From Chloroflexaceae bacterium (GTDB lineage: Bacteria > Cyanobacteriota > Cyanobacteriia > Cyanobacteriales > JAAUTE01), in contig JAAUTE010000004.1 of NCBI GenBank assembly GCA_012031815.1, forward strand, positions 1 to 35,978: a stretch of 35,978 bases of DNA, written 5' to 3'. Positions 6,691 to 22,669 of the stretch are shown here, piece after piece. A model generated the notes under the pieces. The model did not search any database and had not been told where the DNA came from. It saw only the letters and a list, made by a program, of their open reading frames with translations. Position 1 is the first letter of the stretch; each line of letters begins with the position of its first letter. Made by a program: the position numbers and the translations under genes.

Positions 6691-8443
6691 ATGTTGCAAT
6701 CATTGGGAATTCCCCAAACCAGTATTCAGGAATTGTTGATTTTCGCAGGGGACAATAATCGCGTCCGCCAGCAGCTCGATCAAACCCTGACTTTCTATCC
6801 CATTGTATTAGATGAGGTTGTTGACGTTGAGCTGTTTCAAGTCTTTATTCAAGCCAATTTTTTGTCTGGGAACAACAATGCGATCACCCAGGTAGTTAAT
6901 CAGGTTGCGCCCAGGATTGCCTTGTTTGAGAATCAGTTGACGGGAGATGTTCCAGCGGATTTAACGCTAACATTTGACGAGTTTATCAATAATGACGGCG
7001 TTCTTGATACGGTTCAGTCAGCGACTCAATCCGTTGATATTCTGGGAGATGACAATCAGGTAATCCAGGCGGCAGAGCAGTCGATTTTAGATCTTTCTTT
7101 CTTTGACCTGAGGGTTCCCAACCCGCTGGCTGGGGCAGCAACCGGAGATATTAATCAGTTTCTTGCAAATATTGCTAATTCCGAGATTTTGGATGGGCTG
7201 CAATTTGCATTTCAGGAGATTATCATCGAAGGCAGCGGCAACTTCGTCGAGCAGCGAATTGAACAGGCGATCGCCGCTTTTGTTGTCCTTGATGAAGCAG
7301 CTCTGGCCCAGTTAAATAACGCAGAAGCCAGCCCGATTCAATTCAGCATTCAAGAGTCCTTTGGGGAAGTTGCTGCGACTGACACAGACAATAATTTCAT
7401 CGAGCAGGAAATTAATCAAACCCTGGTTTTTGACCCTCGATTTGTTTTGGATTTTGATGCTGTCATTGACAATAGTAATGGAACCAGGCTTGAGGATTTC
7501 ACCTTTGCCATTGATGATTTTCTGGAGCGCATTACCAACGAGTTAGAAGTCCTGGCCACTCAAAACATTGTTCAAGAAAATTTGATTACAGGCAATGAAA
7601 ATCAAGATAATGCCTCCAGCAAGCAGCAAACTATTCTCACCGAAACCAGCGAATTGATCTTTGGCGATCGCGAAGGCAATGTGATAGAAGCTGGGGTAAC
7701 GGTGACGGCGACGGGTTTAGTGGATGGCATTGATGATTTGATTTTTGTGGGTGGGGGCAGCGACTTGGTGGATCTAACCGCAGCTCCGCTAGATTTTTTT
7801 CTTAGAATTCGGCTTTGAAGTTGTCACGAATTCGCGAATTTATGGCGGCAGTGGTGAAGATGAAATTATTGCCAACAGGAGCGATCGCCTGTTTGGGGGG
7901 GGCGGTAATGATTTATTGGAAGCTGGGGCGGGTTTGGGCGATAATCGACTGTATGGCGGCGCTGGCAATGACGAACTCATCGCTGGGGCAGCAGGGGGCG
8001 ATCGCCTGTTTGGGAATAATGGTGATGATGTTTTAGATAGTTCTTTAAGTCTCGGTGAAAATCGGCTTTACGGTGGCAACGGCGACGATGTTTTAATTGC
8101 TGGCCTAGGCGATCGCTTAATCGGCGGCAGCGGCAGCGATCGATTGTTTGCCATGCTGGGAGGCGATAATACGCTAACCGGCGGCCGGGGCAACGATCAA
8201 TTTTGGCTGGGGGGAATCGAGTTAGGGGAAGAATTGAATCTCGTCACCGATTTTACCTCCGGGGAGGATAGCCTTGGCCTTGGCGATTTAACCCTGGATT
8301 TTGACGAAATCGCCCTACGTCAAGCAGGGGCTGATACGGTGATTGGGATTGGCGATCGCGACATTGCTCGGCTGATTAATGTTAATGCGAGCAGTTTAAG
8401 TGCTGGGGACTTTATCTTAAATTCGTCTCCGGTTTTAGCTTGA
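6691..8443 (+). CDS. RTX-type calcium-binding protein with N-terminal curlin-like N/Q repeats, one frameshift
   Basis: Reconstructed as one acidic protein of about 583 residues. Residues 1 to about 330 carry repeats of the form G-x-N-N-x-[VI]-x-Q-x(3)-Q-x-[LI]: GDNNRVRQQLDQ near 20, GNNNAITQVVNQ near 60, GDDNQVIQAAEQ near 119, GSGNFVEQRIEQ near 181 and TDNNFIEQEINQ near 232. The C-terminal third has RTX nonapeptides such as YGGSGEDEI, FGGGGNDLL, YGGAGNDEL and YGGNGDDVL, expected to form a Ca2+-binding beta-roll, then a closing DFTSGEDSLGL segment. No N-terminal signal peptide is visible, which fits type I secretion. The frame breaks at seven T at 7794-7800; with six T it reads DFFLEFGFEVVTNSRIYGGSG. 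The 3' end overlaps the convergent ligase by nine bases. Confidence 0.8.
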
Positions 8444-9969
8444 AACTGATCGGATTGACTCTGCTGAAACCTCAAGGGAAGGCGACTGAAACAGCTTAAC
8501 AACCGCTGGCTTTGTCACTTTTCCCAGGGCATTTCGCGGCAGATCTTCAACACACAGAATTTGAGTAGGGAGTTTATAAAAGGCCAATCTCTCTTTCGCC
8601 CAGCGCCTTAATGCCGAAGCACTTAACTGGCTTCCCGGCTGTAAAACTAAGGCAGCAGCCACTTTTTCTCCCCACTCTACATCCTCAATCCCCACCACCG
8701 CGCAATCCTGGATCTCTGGATGCGATCGCAGCACTTCTTCGATTTCTAAGGCTGACAATTTATAGCCGCCGGTTTTGATAATATCCACACTCATGCGACC
8801 CAAAATCCGATAATAATTGTCCTCAAGAACGGCTGAATCTCCCGTACAAAACCACCCATCTCGAAAAGCTTTAGCGGTGGCTTCAGGATTTTGCCAATAT
8901 TCCAAAAATACGCCCGGCCCTTTTACTTGAATTTCTCCCGCTGTTCCTGGTGCGACAACTGCTCCCACTTCATTTACCAATCGCACCTCCACCCCTGGTA
9001 GCGGCTGACCCACACATCCGGCCCGGCGCTGACCCCGCAGTGGATTCGAGAGTGCCATGCCAATTTCCGTCATACCGTAGCGCTCTAGCAGGAAATGACC
9101 GCTAATCCTCTGCCATTTCTCCAAAACTTCCACTGGAAGCGCCGCTGATCCCGAAACCATCAATCGCATGTTGGCGCAGCCTGCCGACAACTGTTTTTGT
9201 CGCTCTGCCGGGGCTGTCTCCCAAGCGGCAATGAGTTTGGCATAAATGGTCGGAACAGCCATAAATAGCGCTAAATCCCCCTGGGCGATCCGATCCCAGA
9301 CGATTTCGGCATTAAACTTACTAAGCATGTGACATTCTGCTCCAGCCCAAAGCGCGCAGCTTAGGACATTGACAATGCCATGAATGTGATGCAGCGGCAA
9401 GACATGCAGAATTCGGTCTGAAGCCGTCCAGCCCCACGTCTCAATTAAGCTCGTAATCTGAGCCTGGAGATTGAAATGAGTGGTAATAACGCCTTTCGGC
9501 TTCCCTGTTGTCCCGCTAGTAAACAGCATCAAGGCCCTTCGGTTCAAGTCTATCTCTGGTAGGACGCTCGCTTGAGCGGGAGGCTCCTCCAAGGAGACAA
9601 TGAAACGTAACCCCCGTTCTTGGGCGATCGCGCCGAGAAGTTTCTTACGAAACCGGGGATGGCGATCGCGATCGAGGCGTCCGCGTGGGCGATCGCATAT
9701 TCCAATTCCAGTCGGGGATGAGAAATACACAGAGGCACGGAAATGCCACCCGCCCGCCAAATCCCCCATTGGGTAGCGACATACTGAAATCCTGGGGGGA
9801 GGAGAAAAGCGACGCGCTGCTCTTGTAAATCAGTTTGTCCCTGTAGAAGATGGGACGCGATTTGAGCGGAGACGCGCAGTAAATCCCGATAAGTAAATGT
9901 ACCTTCTGAAGCAACGATGGCGACGCTTTCACAATGTTGTTGGGCGCGAAGGATCGGGGGAAGATTCAC
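8435..9969 (-). CDS. Acyl-CoA ligase of the malonyl-CoA synthetase/ACSF3 type, one frameshift
   Basis: AMP-forming ligase of the ANL superfamily, about 511 residues once repaired. Visible motifs: the P-loop-like LFTSGTTGKPKGV, LPLHHIHGIVNVL, the adenylate motif RYGMTEIGMALSNP, the hinge GWFCTGDSAV...YRILGRMSVDIIKTGGYK, and the C-terminal catalytic Lys in PRNALGKVTKP. The LHHIHG and GMTE context is closest to malonate/methylmalonate-CoA ligases (MatB/ACSF3), but long-chain or o-succinylbenzoate ligases cannot be excluded. The start is GTG at 9969. The frame breaks at about 9661, where one base is missing beside a GATCGC site; repair gives ASIAIAHPRFRKKLL. The gene converges on the calcium-binding protein gene with a nine-base overlap. 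Confidence 0.8.
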
Positions 9970-12427: not shown

Positions 12428-14508
12428 ATGACTGAAGCGACCCTTGCTGAAAACCCGCTTTTAATTGGCAAAGGCTTGCCGCCATTTGACCAAATTCGAC
12501 CCGAACAGGTCATTCCTGCCATGACGGAGTTGTTAGCCCGTTTAGAGCAGGACTTGGCTACTCTAGAAGCCACCGTTAGCCCTACCTGGGCCGGTTCCAT
12601 CGAACCCTTAACCGCCACACGCGATCGCCTGTATTGGACGTGGGGAATTATTGGTCATTTGATGGGCGTCAAAAACAGTCCAGAACTCCGCCAAGCTTAC
12701 GAAACCGTCCAGCCGGAAATTATCAAGTTCACCAGCAAACTGGGACAGAGCCAACCCCTCTATCAAGCTCTGAAAACCCTCCGAGCCGGAGACACCTGGG
12801 ACAGCTTAGAACCCGCGCAACAGCGCATCATCGACACAGCCATTCAAGAGGCGGAATTATCGGGCGTAGGCTTACAGGGAGAGCTACAGGAGCGCTTTAA
12901 CCAAATCCAGCAGGAATTGGCAGAATTGTCGACACGGTTTGGGAATAACGTCCTGGATGCCACCAAAGCTTTCAGGCTCGAACTCACCCGTCCCGAAGAG
13001 GTGGCCGGACTGCCAGCCAACATCCTGGCCCTGGCCGCCCAAACCGCACGCAATGATGGGTTAGAAACCGCAGCCCCAGCCGGGGGCCCGTGGGTATTTA
13101 CCCTGGACTACCCCAGCTATCTTCCCTTTCTCAAATACAGTACCCAGGAAGCCCTGCGAGAAAAACTCTACCGCGCCTTTGTTAGCCGTGCCGCTTCCGG
13201 CGAATTCGACAACAATTCCCAAATCGAGCGGATTTTAGCCCTACGGCAAGAAATGGCGAACCTGCTCGGCTTTAAGACCTACGCCGAACTCAGCCTCGCC
13301 CGTAAAATGGCTCCCTCCGTTGAAGCCGTCGAAGCCCTTTTGGAAGAACTCCGCCTGGCTAGCTATCCCGCTGCCGTTCAAGAATTGGCAGACTTAAAAG
13401 CCTTTGCCGCTAAAGACGACCTCAAACCTTGGGACGTTGCTTTTGGGCGGAGAAACAGCGAGAAGCGCAATTTGCCTTTTCTGCCGAGGAGCTACGGCCC
13501 TACTTTCCCCTGCCCCAGGTCTTGAGGGGACTTTTCGCCCTGGCTGAGCGAATTTTTGCCATCAATATCGCCCCTGCCGACGGTGACGCTCCCGTTTGGC
13601 ACGAGGACGTACGCTATTTCCAGGTCAGTGACGAAACCGAAGTGGCGATCGCCCATTTTTACCTTGATCCCTACAGCCGACCGGAAGAAAAGCGTGGTGG
13701 GGCCTGGATGGACGAATGTATCGGTCGCGGCAAAATTTCAGAAAACGGTCAAACCGTCCTGCGCTTACCCGTCGCTTATCTAGTGTGCAATCAAACCCCG
13801 CCGGTGGATGGCAAACCCGCCTTGATGACTTTTGAAGAGGTAGAAACCCTATTCCACGAATTTGGCCACGGTTTGCAGCACATGCTCACCCAGGTAGACT
13901 ATCCCGGAGCCGCAGGCATCAACAACATTGAATGGGATGCGGTAGAACTGCCCAGCCAGTTTATGGAAAACTGGTGCTACGACCGCGCCACCCTAATGGG
14001 CATGGCCCATCACTACGAAACCGGGGAGACCTTGCCGGAACATTATTATCAAAAACTGCTAGCGGCACGCAATTACATGAGCGGTTCAGCCATGCTGCGC
14101 CAGTTACACTTTAGCCTGCTGGATCTGGCACTGCACCACCACTACCAACCTGAGCGAGACACCCCGCAACAAATCAGAGAGCGCTTGATTCCCACAACCA
14201 CCGTGCTGCCTCCCCTCCCCGAAGACCAGTTTCTCTGCGCGTTCGGCCATATTTTCGCAGGCGGTTATGCGGCAGGTTACTACAGCTATAAATGGGCCGA
14301 AGTCCTCAGCGCTGATGCCTTCTCCGCCTTTGAAGAAGTAGGACTGGGAGACGAAATTGCGATCGCAGCCACGGGACGCCGCTTCCGGGAAACGATTTTG
14401 TCCCTCGGCGGCAGTTTACACCCGATGGAAATTTACAAAATCTTCCGGGGTCGAGAACCACAGACCGCGGCCATCCTGCGCCACAGCGGTTTAGTTCCAG
14501 CCGTCTAG
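12428..14508 (+). CDS. prlC: Oligopeptidase A-like M3 metallopeptidase, one frameshift
   Basis: A cytosolic zinc peptidase of about 693 residues that degrades short peptides, such as cleaved signal peptides. The zinc motif HEFGH lies near residue 477 in ETLFHEFGHGLQHML, followed by the third ligand region with EWDAVELPSQFMENW. The N-terminus NPLLIGKGLPPFDQIRPEQV is typical of PrlC. The start is ATG 12428; a TTG at 12410 lies upstream in frame. The frame breaks at TTTT 13441-13444; adding one T gives WDVAFWAEKQREAQF and restores the rest. The symbol follows the E. coli homologue; physiological substrates in cyanobacteria are not established. Confidence 0.88.
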
Positions 14509-14676: not shown

Positions 14677-15474
14677 CTAAAATACTCTAATGCGGCTACC
14701 AGTCAGCAGCGCCAAGACGGTCACCCCAAGGAGACCAAATTCTGTCGCTGGTTCAGGAACCTCCTGAACGCTCGGGGACCTTTCCTGAAAGATTACATTG
14801 TCAATCGCTGCTGCGTCGGTAGAATCGGCAGAAACTGCTTGAATGTCGATTGCCGTGATACGGACATCATTCTCAAGAATCTGAACGCCAAAAAAGTTAG
14901 AAGTTGCCTGATTCTCGTCTACAAAGACTGTTTGTTGGAACTGCGTGTTATCCGAGGCAAAGACAGTGATGTTGACGTTACCGCTTTCGAAAAGTCTAAC
15001 TAGATCGAAACCCAATCTGGTAATGGGGCCGCTGGTGGCGGTAGGAACTATTCGCAGCGTATCGGCAAAATCTGACACGGCAAGGACTGTGCTAGTCAGC
15101 GCCAATCCTGAATCTTCATTGTAAACACTCAAGGCATTCTGCGTACTCTCGGGCACTCTAAATTCCAGGTTAGGAACAATATCCCCCGGAGCAAACACCT
15201 GAACGCCAGATTCAGCTCCGATTCTGGAAGATGTGGAATTCAAGGGAGAGTTAAAGGCATCAAATCCAGGAAAATCAACAGAACTTGCAGGATTGTCTAC
15301 AATGACAGCTGCTTCAAAATCTTCTTCCCCAGTTGGTGCAAAATTTGGCGTAAATAATGTGTTTCGGCTAGTGAAAGCCTCAAAAGTCGCTGCTGCAGAG
15401 GGAAGAGTGAATGCTGCAACTCCCACAGATACAATCACGGCACTAGCCGCTGTCTTGCAAATCATCATTTTCAT
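14677..15474 (-). CDS. Secreted PEP-CTERM sorting-domain protein
   Basis: A 265-residue exported protein. It has an N-terminal signal peptide (KMMICKTAAS start, hydrophobic core, cleavage likely after PSAAA near residue 29) and a C-terminal sorting tail. The tail is VPEPATEFGLLG near residue 238, then a hydrophobic helix, then basic residues (GSRIRVF). PEP-CTERM proteins are processed by exosortase and placed at the surface or in the exopolysaccharide matrix. The middle, rich in Thr, Ser and Asp, resembles no catalytic domain I know. CAGGGG seven bases before the ATG supports the start. The gene is divergent from the lasso precursor across a 531-base gap. Confidence 0.8.
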   Translation of the reverse strand: MKMMICKTAASAVIVSVGVAAFTLPSAAATFEAFTSRNTLFTPNFAPTGEEDFEAAVIVDNPASSVDFPGFDAFNSPLNSTSSRIGAESGVQVFAPGDIVPNLEFRVPESTQNALSVYNEDSGLALTSTVLAVSDFADTLRIVPTATSGPITRLGFDLVRLFESGNVNITVFASDNTQFQQTVFVDENQATSNFFGVQILENDVRITAIDIQAVSADSTDAAAIDNVIFQERSPSVQEVPEPATEFGLLGVTVLALLTGSRIRVF

Positions 15475-16005: not shown

Positions 16006-16146
16006 ATGTCAAACAAAACTACATACACAAAACCAACGTTGACCTATTTTGGTACCGTTACCCTGATTACGGAAACAAACATGATGGGGGGGGTTGCTGA
16101 CAATCCTGGCACCAGGGGCAGCGATTCCAAGCTGCTTTCTCCCTAA
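16006..16146 (+). CDS. Lasso peptide precursor (A gene)
   Basis: A 46-residue peptide. The leader starts MSNKTTYTKPTLTYFG and carries the YxxPxL motif recognised by lasso RRE proteins, then a Gly, then Thr six residues after that Gly. If that Thr is the conserved leader -2 residue, cleavage after ITE gives a 23-residue core starting TNMMGGVAD. Asp9 is then in place for a nine-residue macrolactam with Thr1. The tail contains one Arg-Gly and ends KLLSP. An alternative is cleavage after ETN, with Met1 and Asp7. The ATG at 16006 is preferred to an upstream start at 15946. A run of eight G at 16086-16093 makes the frame sensitive to sequencing error, although one G more or fewer gives an implausible product. 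The gene converges on the cyclase gene, 42 bases away. Confidence 0.75.
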   Translation: MSNKTTYTKPTLTYFGTVTLITETNMMGGVADNPGTRGSDSKLLSP

Positions 16147-16188: not shown

Positions 16189-18029
16189 TCAACTTATGGT
16201 GTTGTTAAGGTGAACAAGCCAGAGGTTTAGAAGTAGGGGACGCAGACCCGTATAGATACCCTCGCTCCCTATTTCAGCCGAGGTAATTTTCGGGATTTCA
16301 TGAGAAACAATGTAAGCTGACAATTCAGGAACTGGCTTCCAGCGATCGAGCCAGTCTGTTCCGGCCCTTCTAACCAAAGAGTCTTGTAAGTTTCCTAAAG
16401 GTGTTTTGGGTCGTTGGACAACGGGATCGGGTAAGACTTCCTGCATGGCGCGACGAATTAGATATTTTCGGAATAGCCAGGGATAGGGCGATATAGCTAA
16501 AATCAGCTCGATTAACCGTAAATCCAGAAAAGGGTCGCGGTTTTCCAGCGCATGGGATTTAGTCTCATCTAAATACTCGCTTTCTCTGTACCAGTTTGGA
16601 AATACCATCCATCGGTGAACCGCCGGGTGACGCTGGTTAAGGGGCGAGGGATGCCACGACCAAACCTGCTGCCATCGTTCCCGAAGCTGAAGCCGCTCGG
16701 TGAAGGACGGATTTAACCAGCTGGGAAAAGCATAGGCAGGCGCATCACTGTTTTGGCGGGAGCGTCCCCGGAATTTAGCAATTAATCCAGTTCCCAGGGA
16801 TAGACGAATGTTATGGCGTAATTTTAGCTGTAAGGCTTCTTGTACAATGGCTAGGAGATTCTTTTGTCTGAGGCGGCTAAAAATGGTTGGGGAAGGCGGT
16901 AAGCACAGGAGATTATCGGCGCAGTCCCCGGTTAATAAAACTGGGCTGTAACTCGCCATTCGCCGAGCGAGGTCAACCCCCTGGATTGGGGTGTAGTTTT
17001 CACTCGGTTCGACGGGCGGACAGGGCGGTTGGAGTAGGGCATAGTTGTCACAAACAAAGTAGTCAATGGGCAATTCTAGCTTTTTGGCGACTAATCCAGC
17101 AAAATAGCGTTCCCGATCTGGATGGATGTGGTCGTAAACAGCGGTTACGGCTTGTAATTGGGTCGAACTAGCTCCTTCTCCCACGAGCTGGCAGGCTGTG
17201 GCCGCGACGGCGGTGGAGTCCATGCCGCCACTCATGGCAATCACGGCGCGATCGCAGCGGAGGCGGTCTTGAACGCAGATCTTAAAAACGGTGCGGAAGT
17301 GCTCTATGTAGTCTTGGTCATTTTTATATTTAAGTAGCGGGACTTCCAGGGGAAAATCCCAGTAGGGTTTGATGACAAGCTCGCCCCCGCTCCAGCTTAA
17401 AGAAGAGGCTGGCGGTAGTTTCTGAATATCGGCAAAGGGGGTGATTGATTTGTCTAGCCAGGTATGGCTCCCAAACAGCAAAAAATCTGCGATCGCCAAT
17501 TCATTTAAAGTATTGGTCACTCCTGGATAGCCCGCACGCAGTTCAGGCTGTTACTAAAAACCAGGGTATTGCCCAGGCGAGCGTAGTAGATAACTCTCAA
17601 ACCAAAGCGATCGCGGGCGCAAAATAATTTTCTGTGCCGTCGATCCCAAAGAGCAAACACAAAATCACCCAGCAAAGACTCCAGACAGGTTTCGCCCCAC
17701 AATTGGTAGGCATGAAGAATCAGGTTGACATCAGGATCGCTGGCTGACACAAGACAACCTTGGGCTTGCAGCCGAGGAATCAAGGTCGCGCGATCGTCGA
17801 TGCGGGCCTGGGCGGTTATGTAAACTTGCCCGTCCAAGGTGCAGGGCTGCTGTTCCCCTGCCGATTCCCAGGTTGTCCGTAACAGGGTATGGCCGAAGCC
17901 GACGTTGCCATCCAGCCAAATGTCTTGGGCGTCCGGCCCCCGATAGGTGAGGTGGGCCAGCAGGGTTTCTACGGATTGCCGGGGGACTGGCCGGTTGTCC
18001 AGGTTAATAATGCCGCAAATACCGCTCAT
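16189..18029 (-). CDS. Lasso peptide cyclase (asparagine synthetase-like, C protein), split by a frameshift or coupled ORFs
   Basis: The predicted macrolactam synthetase that adenylates the ring Asp and closes it on the core N-terminus. The N-terminal part (residues 1-170) is a glutamine-amidotransferase-like domain starting MSGICGIINLDNRP. The C-terminal part is an ATP-pyrophosphatase domain with SGGMDSTAVAA. The first frame stops at 17517-17519 and the second starts as GTG 17520, overlapping as GTGA. One added base near 17519 gives RAIQDVTNTLNELAIADFLLFG, the continuous form expected of a cyclase of about 613 residues. Either this is another one-base error or the two halves are separate, coupled proteins. 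It is the last gene of a minus-strand cluster that includes B1, B2, kinase and methyltransferase. Confidence 0.85.
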
Positions 18030-18067
18030 AAAGAGTCTATTAATCAATTTACCTCAGTCAATCGCCC

Positions 18068-19207
18068 TCAGCCGTAGCGTTGGGATAGGTCAGCCACATA
18101 GTTAAAGGCTTTTTTGTAGCTGGGAAAGCGCTGGGGAAATTGTTGGTGCAGTTTTTCGGCGATCGCTTTGAGGGTTTGGGGTTGTCCCATCTGAACCAGG
18201 AGCCAAGCGTCGATTTGACCGACTTCGGTGAGCTGGGGCTGGTAGACTTCGCTCCGCTTGCTCAAGGCTGTCATGGACAAGGGCTGGCCGAAAAACGTTG
18301 ATTGACGAAATTGGGCTTTAAGGAGGCGATCTCCGCTGGTAATTTCAGTTTCCCAGCGCCAGAGATAGTCTTCCCCCACAAGGCTAGCCTGAAGGGTAAC
18401 TGCGACGCGATCGCCGCTCGCCAAGGCTACTTCCTGTTGCCAGGGAAAAAAGCTGCGTCCGTAGACTAAATCCGCAGCCAGCGGCGAATTAGAATAGCCA
18501 ATTCCCGGCCCCAGGGTGGCATCAAACCACACCAGTAAACCGTGGCCCGTTCGCGGCTGCTCTAGGGTCCAACTCAAGGTATTTGACCAGTTTGGCTCTG
18601 AGATCGTGGTGTAATCCAGGGTTGCCCAAAGTTGCGGCTCGCCTACTAACTGCTCTGCCGCGACCTTGCCCTTACTTGAGGTGTTGATCGTGCGCGATCG
18701 CCCTGGCGTCATGTCGATGCCATAGGGACGGTTGGGCCAAGGGCCGTCGTGCCGAGCGTAAAGGGACGAATCTTCCACCAGAGCAACCCAGATCCGATCT
18801 TGGCAAGGAATGAGCTGGCCGCCAGGAGCCAGGAAGCGCCGGCGAGCATCGGCGATCGCGGCAATATGATCGCCAAACAGGGGCAAAACCCCGCGCAAGT
18901 CAGAAACAATGACATCCGCTGGTTCGGGGAGTTCCACCGCCGTTGACAGGGCCTGGTGAAAGTGAATGCGCCCTTGATAGCCGTTGTGTGCTGCAATTTC
19001 TCGGGCCACCTGAATGGCATCGCTGGGTTCAATGGCATATACCTGCCGCGCTCCCAACTGACAGGCAATCAGGGCAAAAATTCCGGTTCCCGTGCCGATA
19101 TCGACGACCACAGACCCCGGTTTTACCTGCTGGCTCAGAGCTGCAACGTAGGCATCCGTGCGCGCCGTATCGGCAATCATTTGACCGTAGTTGGTAATGC
19201 TATACAT
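18068..19207 (-). CDS. PRMT/L11-methyltransferase-like SAM methyltransferase with a PqqD-like C-terminal domain
   Basis: A 379-residue protein. The SAM motif I is VVDIGTGTGIFALIACQLGA near residue 33, then AIEPS (motif post-I). VIVSDLRGVLPLFGD near residue 100 sits where protein arginine methyltransferases have their SE-x-MGY double-E loop; the first Glu is Asp here. The middle is a beta-rich PRMT-barrel-like region. The last 60 residues (QIDAWLLVQMG, TLKAIAEKLHQQFP, then ADLSQRYG) resemble the winged-helix PqqD/RRE fold, which would let it dock on a leader peptide. Its place between kinase and cyclase genes suggests tailoring of the lasso peptide, perhaps its single Arg. It overlaps the kinase gene end by 31 bases. 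The substrate is inferred only. Confidence 0.75.
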   Translation of the reverse strand: MYSITNYGQMIADTARTDAYVAALSQQVKPGSVVVDIGTGTGIFALIACQLGARQVYAIEPSDAIQVAREIAAHNGYQGRIHFHQALSTAVELPEPADVIVSDLRGVLPLFGDHIAAIADARRRFLAPGGQLIPCQDRIWVALVEDSSLYARHDGPWPNRPYGIDMTPGRSRTINTSSKGKVAAEQLVGEPQLWATLDYTTISEPNWSNTLSWTLEQPRTGHGLLVWFDATLGPGIGYSNSPLAADLVYGRSFFPWQQEVALASGDRVAVTLQASLVGEDYLWRWETEITSGDRLLKAQFRQSTFFGQPLSMTALSKRSEVYQPQLTEVGQIDAWLLVQMGQPQTLKAIAEKLHQQFPQRFPSYKKAFNYVADLSQRYG

Positions 19208-20179
19208 GGAAGGGTGGCAAAATCCTGAAGAATTGCTTGGGTGAGTTGGGGTAGTTTCGCCAGATTTCGGTAGTTGTTGAGGCGTCGGAGGGGAACGCTG
19301 GCAGCTAACCGTCCAAAGATGCTAAATTCCTGCTTCTGTAGCCAAGAATCATGCCACCGGTAGCGATAGCTCTCTCCGATCAGGGCTAGCCATCCTTCCT
19401 GCTTCTCACAAGGCTGAATCCCTATTTCTTCCCCGGCTGTTCCCTGAAGGAGGTAAATTGCCCCTAGGGGTAGGGGAGTCGCTTGAAAGGCGCAATTTTG
19501 GCTGAGATCGAGGTAGCGCTTGTCGTAGCTAGGGGCAAGCCGGGGTTGGGGCGTCGCGATCGCCACAAAGAACTTCTACCGAATCTTCCCAAAGGCGCAG
19601 GCGGGGATAGCCGGGAACTGCCAGAAATCCGTTATCTCGCTCTACCAACGGCAAAACATCGTCACTGACTGCGGGATAGCCCTGTTGGGTTAGGGCAGCG
19701 GCTGTGGTTGATTTGCCTGACCCCGACGGCCCGACCAGGGCTAGAGCGCGATCGCCTACGGCCACGGCACTGGCATGGAGACAGATCCTTCCTCGTCGCC
19801 GCACCAGAAATCCCATCACCGGCCCCAGCAGGTAAAGGGCCGCATCTTCCAGGGTGAGGGAGGGGCACCAATCTCCCCAAAGGGCCATTCCCTGGCGATC
19901 GCAAACGAATTCAATCCCTTTCTCGTAACCAATGTGAAAATAAGCGCCCCCTGCCACTATCGTTACGGTCAACAGGGGCTGACCCGCTTCGTCTAACCAG
20001 GGAGAGGTGTAGTAGGGAGTCCGCTCTCCCCGGCAGTATTCCTGCAACCAGCCAGGAAACGGCCCGCAGGTAACACAGATATCTGCTGCCCCCGTAGCCA
20101 AATCCGACCGCAGAACGGTTCCGGGAATCGGGCAGTTGGCCTGCAGGTGCAGGCCGTAGATTAAAGTATGCCAGCTCAA
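19177..20179 (-). CDS. HprK-like kinase of the lasso cluster, one frameshift
   Basis: Repaired length is about 333 residues. The HPr-kinase-like core shows RICLHASAVAVGD, a P-loop GPSGSGKSTTAA near residue 151, and an acidic motif VSDDVLPL near 173. In other bacteria such kinases in lasso clusters (paeninodin type) phosphorylate a Ser at the precursor C-terminus. The precursor here ends Ser-Pro and has two more tail Ser residues. The frame breaks near GGGG 19548-19551 (plus strand); with one G fewer the protein reads LCGDRDAQPRLAPSYDKRYL and ends at 19177. It may be a tailoring enzyme, but HprK-related proteins also occur near PqqD proteins in other peptide pathways. Confidence 0.78.
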
Positions 20180-20256: not shown

Positions 20257-20754
20257 CTAAAACTGGGCCAGCCCTCGATCCTTAGCGGCGGTTCGGAACC
20301 AGGAAATCCCAGGACGCGACCCAAAGGCTGCATAGGCAGAAACTGCTTCTGGGGTATCGTTGAGCACCGCGTCCCCCGACTCCACCCAGGCATGGGCTTG
20401 AAATTGCGCTGATGCTCGTCTGACTCCTAGCCTGAGTTCGCTCTCAATGCCTCGCGATCGCAACAGACAATGTAATACCAGCGATCGCTGCAAACAGTTG
20501 CCAGTGCGGGTGTAACGAGCTGCCAATTGACACTGACGGGCGATCGCTCGGGCCCCAGTCTCATCTACTGTTTGGATGGGGGGAGCTGTCAGCCAGCAGG
20601 AGAGCCAGCGAGCCGTCGCTTTCAAGCCAAGCAAAGGCAGGAGACCCCTAACCGCCACCAATAAGGCCAGAGCCTGCCAAAACAGCGTTTTTTCCCAGCA
20701 GGACAACTGGCTCCAGGTGCGACACTTACGACTGAGTAATTTCCACCAATCCAT
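20257..20754 (-). CDS. Lasso leader peptidase, transglutaminase-like (B2)
   Basis: A protein of about 165 residues starting MDWWKLLSRKCRTWSQ. The catalytic Cys is in RTGNCLQRSLVL and the His in FQAHAWVESG, with a downstream Asp in AVLNDTPEA, the Cys-His-Asp set of the lasso B2 family. It removes the leader peptide in an ATP-dependent maturation complex with B1 and the cyclase. A hydrophobic stretch near residues 25-45 may be a membrane contact. The start at 20754 overlaps the end of B1 by 29 bases, implying coupling. The longer upstream frame from 20919 is out-of-frame B1 sequence. Confidence 0.85.
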   Translation of the reverse strand: MDWWKLLSRKCRTWSQLSCWEKTLFWQALALLVAVRGLLPLLGLKATARWLSCWLTAPPIQTVDETGARAIARQCQLAARYTRTGNCLQRSLVLHCLLRSRGIESELRLGVRRASAQFQAHAWVESGDAVLNDTPEAVSAYAAFGSRPGISWFRTAAKDRGLAQF

Positions 20755-21025
20755 GAGCGAGCAGGCTTTGAACGAAGGCGAGTAAATCTTGCTCCAAGCG
20801 GTCAGCTTCCACATCGTATTCATCCAGCAGCAGTTGAGCTGCCGCCGCAATGGAGTTTGATGCCTGCAAAACAGCCAGCATCCGAGTCCCAATGGCGTCC
20901 AAGCCAAAATATTCTTCACTAGCGCAGTTGAGAAACACGCTTTCCCCGCCTAAATCCTGCATCAACACCTGGGAGGATAGGGAAACTTTTTGGGTCAGCG
21001 CCAGGGGAGTTTCAGTTTGCGTCAT
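20726..21025 (-). CDS. PqqD-family RiPP recognition protein (B1)
   Basis: A 99-residue PqqD-fold protein (MTQTETPLAL start) with a beta-hairpin region LMQDLGGESVFLNCASEEYFGLD, then helices AIGTRMLAVLQ and LEQDLLAFVQSLLAHGLVEI. RREs of this type bind the lasso leader through its YxxPxL segment and deliver it to B2. The ATG at 21025 is preferred to an in-frame start at 21058. It is the first gene of the minus-strand lasso cluster and begins 44 bases after the leuA stop, on the same strand. Confidence 0.85.
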   Translation of the reverse strand: MTQTETPLALTQKVSLSSQVLMQDLGGESVFLNCASEEYFGLDAIGTRMLAVLQASNSIAAAAQLLLDEYDVEADRLEQDLLAFVQSLLAHGLVEITQS

Positions 21026-21069
21026 AGTTCTAGAGAAAATATGCTGGATTCTGCCCAATCTAAACTTAT

Positions 21070-22669
21070 TTAAGTTCCAGCGGCCGTGGAACTCAGTTGT
21101 GCTGTCCGCTGTTGGGCGGCGTAAAGACGGTTGAGGGCGCTGACGTAGGCCCGAGCTGAGGCAACAATGATGTCCGTATCCGCCCCATGACCTGAATAAA
21201 TCCGCTCCGCCTGCTTGAGGCGAATTGTTACTTCCCCAATGGCATCAATACCCGCCGTCACCGACTTGACGGAAAATTCAATGAGCTGGTTAGGCACGTC
21301 GATCGCCCGATTGATGGCTTTGTAGACCGCATCCACAGGGCCCGTGCCAATGGCTGCATCGGTTAATTCCCTGCCATCGGGGGCGCGCAGGGTAACAGTA
21401 GCGGTGGGACGGGCGCGATCACCACAGGAAACCTGTACCAATTCCAGGCGAAAGAGTTCCGGCTGCTGCTGAATTTCGTCGTTGACGATGGCTTCTAAAT
21501 CCCAGTCGGTGATTTCTTTTTTCTTGTCGGCAATGTCTTTAAAACTGACAAAAGCCCGGTTAAGTTCGCTCTCACTCAGCTCGTAGCCCAATTCCTTGAG
21601 GCGAGAACGGAAGGCATTACGGCCCGAATGCTTGCCCAAAATAATTTGGTTGGTGGTGAGGCCGATGGACTGGGCGTCCATGATTTCGTAGGTCAGCTTG
21701 TTTTGAGGACGCCGTCCTGGTGGATGCCCGATTCGTGGGCAAAGGCGTTGGCCCCCACAATGGCTTTATTGGGCTGTACCATCATGCCCGTCAGGTGGGA
21801 AACCAGGCGGGAGGTTTTATAAATTTGGGTAGTGTCGATGTTGGTGAGGGGGTCTGGGGATTCGGGCAGTCGACCCAGGAAGGGATTGAAATACTGACGG
21901 CGCACGTGCAGGGCCATGACCAATTCTTCCAGGGCCGCATTACCGGCGCGCTCGCCAATGCCGTTGATGGTGCATTCCAGTTGGCGGGCCCCGTTTTTGA
22001 TCGCTTCCAGGAAATTAGCCACGGCTAAGCCTAGATCGTTGTGGCCGTGAACGGAGATGATCGCGCGATCGCAACTGGGCACATTGTCTTTAATGCCGCG
22101 GATTAAGGCACCAAATTCTGCCGGGGTCGTGTAGCCGACGGTATCGGGAATATTAATCGTGGTCGCGCCCGCTTCAATGGCCAGCTCTAGCACCTGATAG
22201 AGAAATTCCGGGTCGCTGCGTCCGGCATCTTCCGGGGAAAATTCCACATCTTCCGTCCAGGATTTGGCATAGGCGACCATTTCTGGAACAATAGCTAGGA
22301 CTTGCTCGCGGGTTTTCCGCAGTTTATGGGTCAGGTGAATGTCTGAAGTGGCAATAAAGGTGTGAATTCTCGGCTTAGCTGCTCCCTTGAGGGCTTCCCC
22401 AGCCGCTTTAATGTCGGCTTTGGTGGCTCGGGCCAGGCCGCAAATGGTCGGGCCGCCTTCGCTGCCAACCTGCTCGGCGATTTTCTGGACTGCCTCAAAA
22501 TCCCCCGGACTCGCGTAGGGAAACCCGGCTTCAATCACATCTACGCCCAGTCGCGCTAGGGCACGGGCGATCGCCAGTTTTCTTCTACGTTTAAGGTGGC
22601 CCCAGGAGACTGTTCGCCATCCCGGAGGGTGGTGTCAAAGATAATAATGCGCTCAGGTGCCGTCTGCAT
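21070..22669 (-). CDS. leuA: 2-isopropylmalate synthase, two frameshifts
   Basis: First committed step of leucine synthesis: acetyl-CoA and 2-oxoisovalerate give 2-isopropylmalate. Repaired length is about 533 residues. N-terminal [19 protein letters not shown] holds the Arg-Asp of the active site; the metal ligands are in [26 protein letters not shown] precedes the regulatory C-terminal domain that senses leucine. Two one-base losses lie in A runs (T on the plus strand): TTTT 22578-22581, where one more A gives [13 protein letters not shown], and TTTT 21701-21704, where one more A gives [15 protein letters not shown]. Both repairs restore an ordinary enzyme, so error is more likely than inactivation. 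The lasso operon follows at once. Confidence 0.92.

Follow-up and report, generated by a model that had tools for sequence, protein, structure and literature searches.

The question raised by the 35,978-nucleotide stretch analysed here (the window) is whether a short reading frame near its middle, gene A, encodes the precursor of a lasso peptide and, if it does, which two residues would close the ring. A sequence-only reading of this DNA had proposed a nine-residue ring from Thr1 to Asp9 and had regarded several features of such a peptide as atypical. We find that the 46-residue product of gene A very probably is a lasso precursor with the unusual first residue Thr, and that Thr1-Asp9 is the best supported, and in our judgment a likely, reading of its core, with product, ring and threading all predicted. 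The larger question opened by this precursor is the ring size in those relatives that carry Asp at position 10 or 11.

Gene A and the genes beside it

Gene A runs from an ATG at 16006 to a stop codon at 16144-16146 and encodes MSNKTTYTKPTLTYFGTVTLITETNMMGGVADNPGTRGSDSKLLSP (Table 1). When a profile of 36 homologous precursors, from which the window precursor had been left out, was run against the six-frame translation of the window, gene A was recovered at an i-Evalue of 1.6e-6 and the runner-up at 1.3; judged by this result, the frame is not a product of chance. In the comparison with NCBIfam NF033528 (lasso_cyano), the leader part (residues 4-23) aligned with an E-value of 3.2e-4, although the score of the window precursor was below the curated cut-off of 33 bits, as were those of relatives with intact clusters (26.3 and 28.9 bits). 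The leader contains YxxPxL and Thr(-2), and the core has an Asp at position 9, within positions 7-9. The sequence-only reading had noted that the spacing of YxxPxL, Gly and Thr(-2) fits lasso leaders; this register is indeed the published one of the characterised precursor BsfA (PMC10368454), which itself carries Ile at -2.

Table 1 Features of the lasso locus in the window
Feature	Position	Strand	Observation
Lasso precursor gene A	16006..16146	+	46 aa; leave-out profile i-Evalue 1.6e-6; NF033528 20.6 bits
Leader, 23 aa, MSNKTTYTKPTLTYFGTVTLITE	16006..16074	+	Tyr(-17), Pro(-14), Leu(-12), Gly(-8), Thr(-2); register as in 38 precursors and BsfA
Predicted core, 23 aa, TNMMGGVADNPGTRGSDSKLLSP	16075..16143	+	inferred from leader register
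Predicted macrolactam ring Thr1-Asp9	16075..16101	+	Asp9-Asn10 coincides with the family's conserved acid
Run of eight G	16086..16093	+	lengths 5, 8, 11 keep frame; other lengths lose acid
Cyclase C, C-terminal part	16189..17520	-	Asn_synthase domain PF00733 1.7e-23, SGGMDS motif; NF033535 2.7e-37, below cut-off
Cyclase C, N-terminal part	17517..18047	-	GATase_7 PF13537 4.2e-23; NF033535 2.6e-56; frame break from rest
PRMT-fold methyltransferase	18068..19207	-	PRMT8 E 4.5e-40 by profile; 44-60% identity to family members
HprK-like kinase, C-terminal part, other frame	19177..19566	-	continuous with N-terminal part in homologues
HprK-like kinase, N-terminal part	19529..20179	-	TIGR04352 5.7e-10, PF07475 1e-4; His, GPSGSGKS, Asp-Asp motifs
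Leader peptidase B2	20257..20919	-	NF033537 84.1 bits, cut-off 33; likely start 20754
B1 / RRE (PqqD-like)	20726..21058	-	PF05402 6.3e-13, NF033536 1.2e-13

The lasso cluster lies on the opposite strand, convergent with gene A, and ends 42 bp past its stop codon. It comprises a PqqD-like B1 (RRE), a B2 protease, an HprK-like kinase, a PRMT-fold methyltransferase and an Asn-synthetase-like cyclase, so that B1, B2 and cyclase are all present near the precursor. The frames of the precursor, B1, B2 and the methyltransferase are intact. The cyclase, a single ORF in homologues, is divided by a one-base break at about 17517-17545; its two pieces scored 191.5 and 128.7 bits against NF033535 (lass_lactam_cya), missing the curated cut-off of 525, and its N-terminal part has a likely start at 18029 (MSGICG...), without Cys at position 2. 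We found no Rfam family or tRNA in the window, and the stretch between A and C showed neither a terminator-like fold nor any other special RNA structure.

A family reached through the methyltransferase

With the window precursor as the sole query, no relative was found at E 0.01 among 60 order-mate genomes. Relatives were reached via the methyltransferase gene and then by reading the DNA around each match. When 391 genomes from the order were searched, the window methyltransferase had about 25 strong matches, about 15 of them in clusters with the constant order B1-B2-C-A-K-MT; in the cyanobacterial clusters an ABC transporter and a nucleotidyltransferase-like gene follow, and the C and K frames are intact. 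As a single-sequence query against the contig collection the methyltransferase gave no match, whereas an alignment of nine methyltransferase relatives succeeded, and a profile scan of the same collection added members from Acidobacteria, Proteobacteria, Chloroflexi and others to those from Cyanobacteria. The resulting set of 38 distinct precursors consists of the window's, another one encoded in the source genome and 36 found elsewhere. Being related, these sequences are not independent observations, and the position of the acid played no part in collecting them. The window precursor is a member of a lasso family combining a kinase with a PRMT-fold methyltransferase; our literature search found no description of a lasso family that pairs these two enzymes.

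All 38 precursors contain the leader pattern Y..P.....[YF]G.....T. in one register. The cores are 16-33 residues long, a range that accommodates the 14-residue tail previously called atypical. Core position 1 is A in 11, S in 8, N in 7, G in 5 and T in 4, the Thr1 cores being those of the window, L071, L084 and L085. A, S, N and G are all commoner than Thr. Gly1 is in the minority, and Thr1 is less odd here than the sequence-only reading supposed; its predicted presence in three relatives supports the predicted ring. The earlier remark stands in so far as our literature search found no experimentally proven Thr1 lasso peptide; Asn1 was reported as new in 2025, for metanodin (PMC12670498). If Thr1-Asp9 is right, the lasso repertoire gains a first residue that has not been reported before. 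The two Met residues in the ring, also considered atypical, recur as Met-Met in L065 and L066 (AVDMMG.AD).

Two side observations were made. Tandem precursors with the cores AVDMMGMADGGGGMMNKT and AVDMNGMADGGGGGMNKT lie in one acidobacterial cluster (L066:6448-6717 and 6739-6996) and are Met-rich like the window ring. Cyanobacterial peptides in L158, L159, L163 and L171 have a lasso-type leader (YSEPELKAHGKISGLTQ) and cores such as QVGGSGGFGTTT, without an acid at ring distance.

Position of the ring acid

Asp or Glu occurs somewhere in core positions 8-11 of every precursor, and no acid was found at positions 12-15 in any of the 38 cores. Taking the last acid between positions 7 and 11 of each core, we find it at position 8 in 2 cores, 9 in 17, 10 in 17 and 11 in 2. 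The residue that follows is Asn or Gly in 29 of the 38, and in 15 it is Asn, as in the window. Because Asp9-Asn10 of the window matches both the acid positions of the family and the Asn or Gly behind them, Thr1-Asp9 is well supported as a prediction. The sequence-only reading had staked this ring on homologues having an acid at position 9, and on this point the family is split. The Asp10 class leaves the window's own Asp9 standing, but it shows that the family is not bound to a spacing of 9; with Asp as often at 10 as at 9, spacing alone leaves the ring unfixed.

In published lasso peptides the ring acid is at 7-9 (PMC9266682, PMC10368454), and in 19 of our 38 members the last ring-type acid is at 10 or 11. 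In 16 of these 19 cores, D10 or D11 is the sole acid between positions 2 and 14; L034, L091, L089 and L047 are among those with a single candidate ring acid. Thus half of the family appear to be outside the published range, provided that the start is fixed. We considered whether the D10 members are simply cleaved one residue later. Pairs that share their first residues and differ in acid position, namely SIT-GTVNSD9 (L067) and SIT-KTHVTAD10 (L091), AVN..D9 (L079) and NVN..D10 (L080), and SIG..D9 (L082) and NIG..D10 (L039), speak against this, in a suggestive way only, and such pairs suggest a fixed start with a variable ring size.

That the family closes rings of variable size from 8 to 11, with a first residue other than Gly as the rule and with tailoring by a new type of enzyme, the PRMT-fold methyltransferase, is a tentative proposal to which we give somewhat less than even weight. 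Ten-residue rings, if true, would exceed the range of 7-9 given for lasso peptides. The relatives form a natural series with the same leader, related cyclases and the acid at 8, 9, 10 or 11, which permits a direct test of what determines the ring size that a lasso cyclase makes, and of whether rings of more than nine residues can close and thread.

The G run and the broken frames

A run of eight G, which the sequence-only reading had marked for re-sequencing, is present within the predicted ring, its first G completing the second Met codon. Candidate frames with 6 or 9 G ended in an immediate stop and those with 7 or 10 G in a long tail without any acid, and were rejected; with 5, 8 or 11 G, VADNPGTRGSDSKLLSP is retained. 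Because only these three lengths yield an acid, the reading frame of gene A is safe, and it is supported by the conserved Asp-Asn. The worry was fair, given the one-base breaks in five genes of the window, and it reaches the ring size alone: this hinges on the run being eight, and 8, 9 or 10 could result.

The five genes, those for the AMP-ligase, the M3 peptidase, leuA, the cyclase and the kinase, are each broken at or beside short homopolymers (9540-9660, 13400-13520, 21660-21760, 17500-17560 and 19530-19600). The sites in the cyclase and the kinase were located by the intact frames of relatives, and the other three were read from two overlapping frames alone. We infer that the breaks are probably sequence errors of the draft genome; because leuA and other genes show the same type of break, general sequence error is likelier than decay.

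Putative tailoring enzymes and a proposed pathway

The kinase contains HAS, GPSGSGKS and SDD within 19529-20179, corresponding to the listed His, Lys and Asp-Asp motifs (PMC10368454), and its frame is broken downstream. The C-terminal Ser is phosphorylated in paeninodin (PMC9266682). In the family, [KR][TS] occurs near the C-terminus of 33 of the 38 precursors, and by analogy with paeninodin this Lys/Arg-Thr/Ser is a plausible kinase target; the window core ends in SKLLSP and has neither this pair nor a C-terminal Ser.

In profile comparison, the window methyltransferase aligned with PRMTs over about 265 residues, sharing the fold and the SAM-binding region with PRMT1 and PRMT8. Two glutamates of the PRMT double-E loop bind arginine. 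In the alignment the window enzyme has Asp and Gly in their place (SEWMGYCLFYES in PRMT8, SDLRGVLPLFGD in the window), which makes arginine methylation doubtful. Arginine was thus set aside as the methylation target, and an acceptor other than arginine is likely because the double-E glutamates are replaced. This PRMT-fold enzyme possibly has a new acceptor specificity, and given its altered active site it may be a candidate source of a peptide modification not seen before. We also note that the sequence in place of the loop is SDLRGVLPLFGDH, and that Asp103, Arg105, Gly106 and His114 are invariant in the nine relatives.

In the pathway that we propose, gene A would encode the precursor of a lasso peptide that lacks Cys and is of class II type. 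Its YxxPxL leader would be bound by B1 and removed by B2 with a cut behind Thr(-2)-Glu(-1). The cyclase would adenylate Asp9 and link it to the Thr1 amino group, so that a ring of nine residues would carry a 14-residue tail, partly threaded. We expect the kinase and the methyltransferase to act on this tail. The route is probably completed by an ABC transporter and a nucleotidyltransferase that are encoded on a different contig, C87.

Weighing other explanations

If the peptidase cut one or two residues later, the ring would be Asn2-Asp9 (8 residues) or Met3-Asp9 (7 residues), the latter being the Met1-Asp7 alternative raised earlier. Rings of 8 and 7 are known (PMC9266682), and metanodin has been shown to have Asn as its first residue (PMC12670498). 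However, a later cut violates the Thr(-2) register of all 38 precursors, and position 1 is small in the family (A, S, N, G, T), whereas the D9 class mainly has V or I at position 2. We consider such a cut rather improbable, and the Met3 start, a conceivable but weaker reading, was set aside on the register and on the missing conservation of Met3. We give very little weight to a G run that is off by exactly three, which would place Asp at 8 (five G) or at 10 (eleven G). At least five window genes contain one-base errors of the homopolymer type, and with eleven G the peptide would be grouped with the Asp10 members, among which L039 (NIGAAGKVAD10) is similar to TNMMGGGVAD10; yet every error observed involves a single base, a miscount by exactly three is rarer, and D9 itself is common in the family.

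The window also departs from its family in gene order, in the convergent gene A, in the absent C-terminal Lys-Thr/Ser and in the weak NF033528 score. Together with the frame breaks in the cyclase and the kinase of one draft genome and the location of the transporter pair on another contig, the rearranged order and the missing Lys-Thr/Ser might indicate a decayed relic, with a real frameshift in both enzymes, a scattered operon and no peptide product. We regard this as unlikely, since the same one-base breaks in leuA, the M3 peptidase and the AMP-ligase point to sequence errors and the precursor, B1, B2 and methyltransferase frames are whole. A RiPP with a lasso-type leader and another final structure, e.g., a branched ring without threading, would agree with the family spacing of up to 11, beyond known lasso rings, and sequence cannot reveal threading; against it stands the presence of B1, B2 and an Asn-synthetase-like cyclase, a combination that is the hallmark of lasso systems, and we judge it very unlikely. 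A lasso peptide closed between Thr1 and Asp9 is the reading that we prefer.

Comparison with known systems

Among the closest known systems are the phosphorylated lasso peptides of the paeninodin / pseudomycoidin type (PadeK, PsmK, PsmN; PMC9266682, PMC8498205), with which the window shares the split B1/B2, cyclase C and the HprK-like kinase, and the window's relatives also the ABC transporter and nucleotidyltransferase-like gene. In contrast to these systems, the window family adds the PRMT-fold methyltransferase and its gene order is unlike theirs; their plain Ser end is replaced by Lys-Thr/Ser in relatives and by Ser-Pro in the window, whose core starts with Thr. The BsfA system of Bradymonas (PMC10368454) has in common YxxPxL at -17 to -12, the kinase, B1 and B2, and differs in Ile(-2) and Gly1-Asp8 as opposed to Thr(-2) and Thr1-Asp9. 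Metanodin shares a non-Gly polar first residue, Thr(-2) and a nine-residue ring; it starts with Asn1, and the consulted passages of its report (PMC12670498) make no mention of a kinase or a PRMT-fold methyltransferase in its cluster.

The rest of the source genome

The source genome is a draft of 352 contigs and 86.6% complete, with only one B2 and one lasso cyclase, both in the window cluster, where, unlike in relatives, the cyclase comes after the methyltransferase. The ABC transporter and the nucleotidyltransferase-like gene lie side by side on contig C87 (L187:9943-13075), as in relatives' clusters and apart from the window cluster; C87 was scanned for a further precursor and none was found. 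A second lasso-type precursor, NQSNTQPKKPYRQPQLTKYGSINMLTLENGMLGRVDNLVTMTMALS with the core ENGMLGRVDNLVTMTMALS, lies on contig C140 (L058:14106-14291). It has Glu at position 1 and Asp9-Asn10, and it is followed by its own methyltransferase of 400 aa, with an N-terminal stretch of about 115 residues without assignment. No further member of the source genome's family turned up, and neither B2 nor cyclase was found near the C140 precursor. Because the genome has a single B2 and a single cyclase, this precursor would have to share the window enzymes or adjoin enzymes missing from the incomplete assembly.

At 14677-15474 the window also encodes a secreted-looking protein without a Pfam match, which ends in VPEPATEFGLLGVTVLALLTGSRIRVF, a tail resembling a PEP-CTERM sorting signal.
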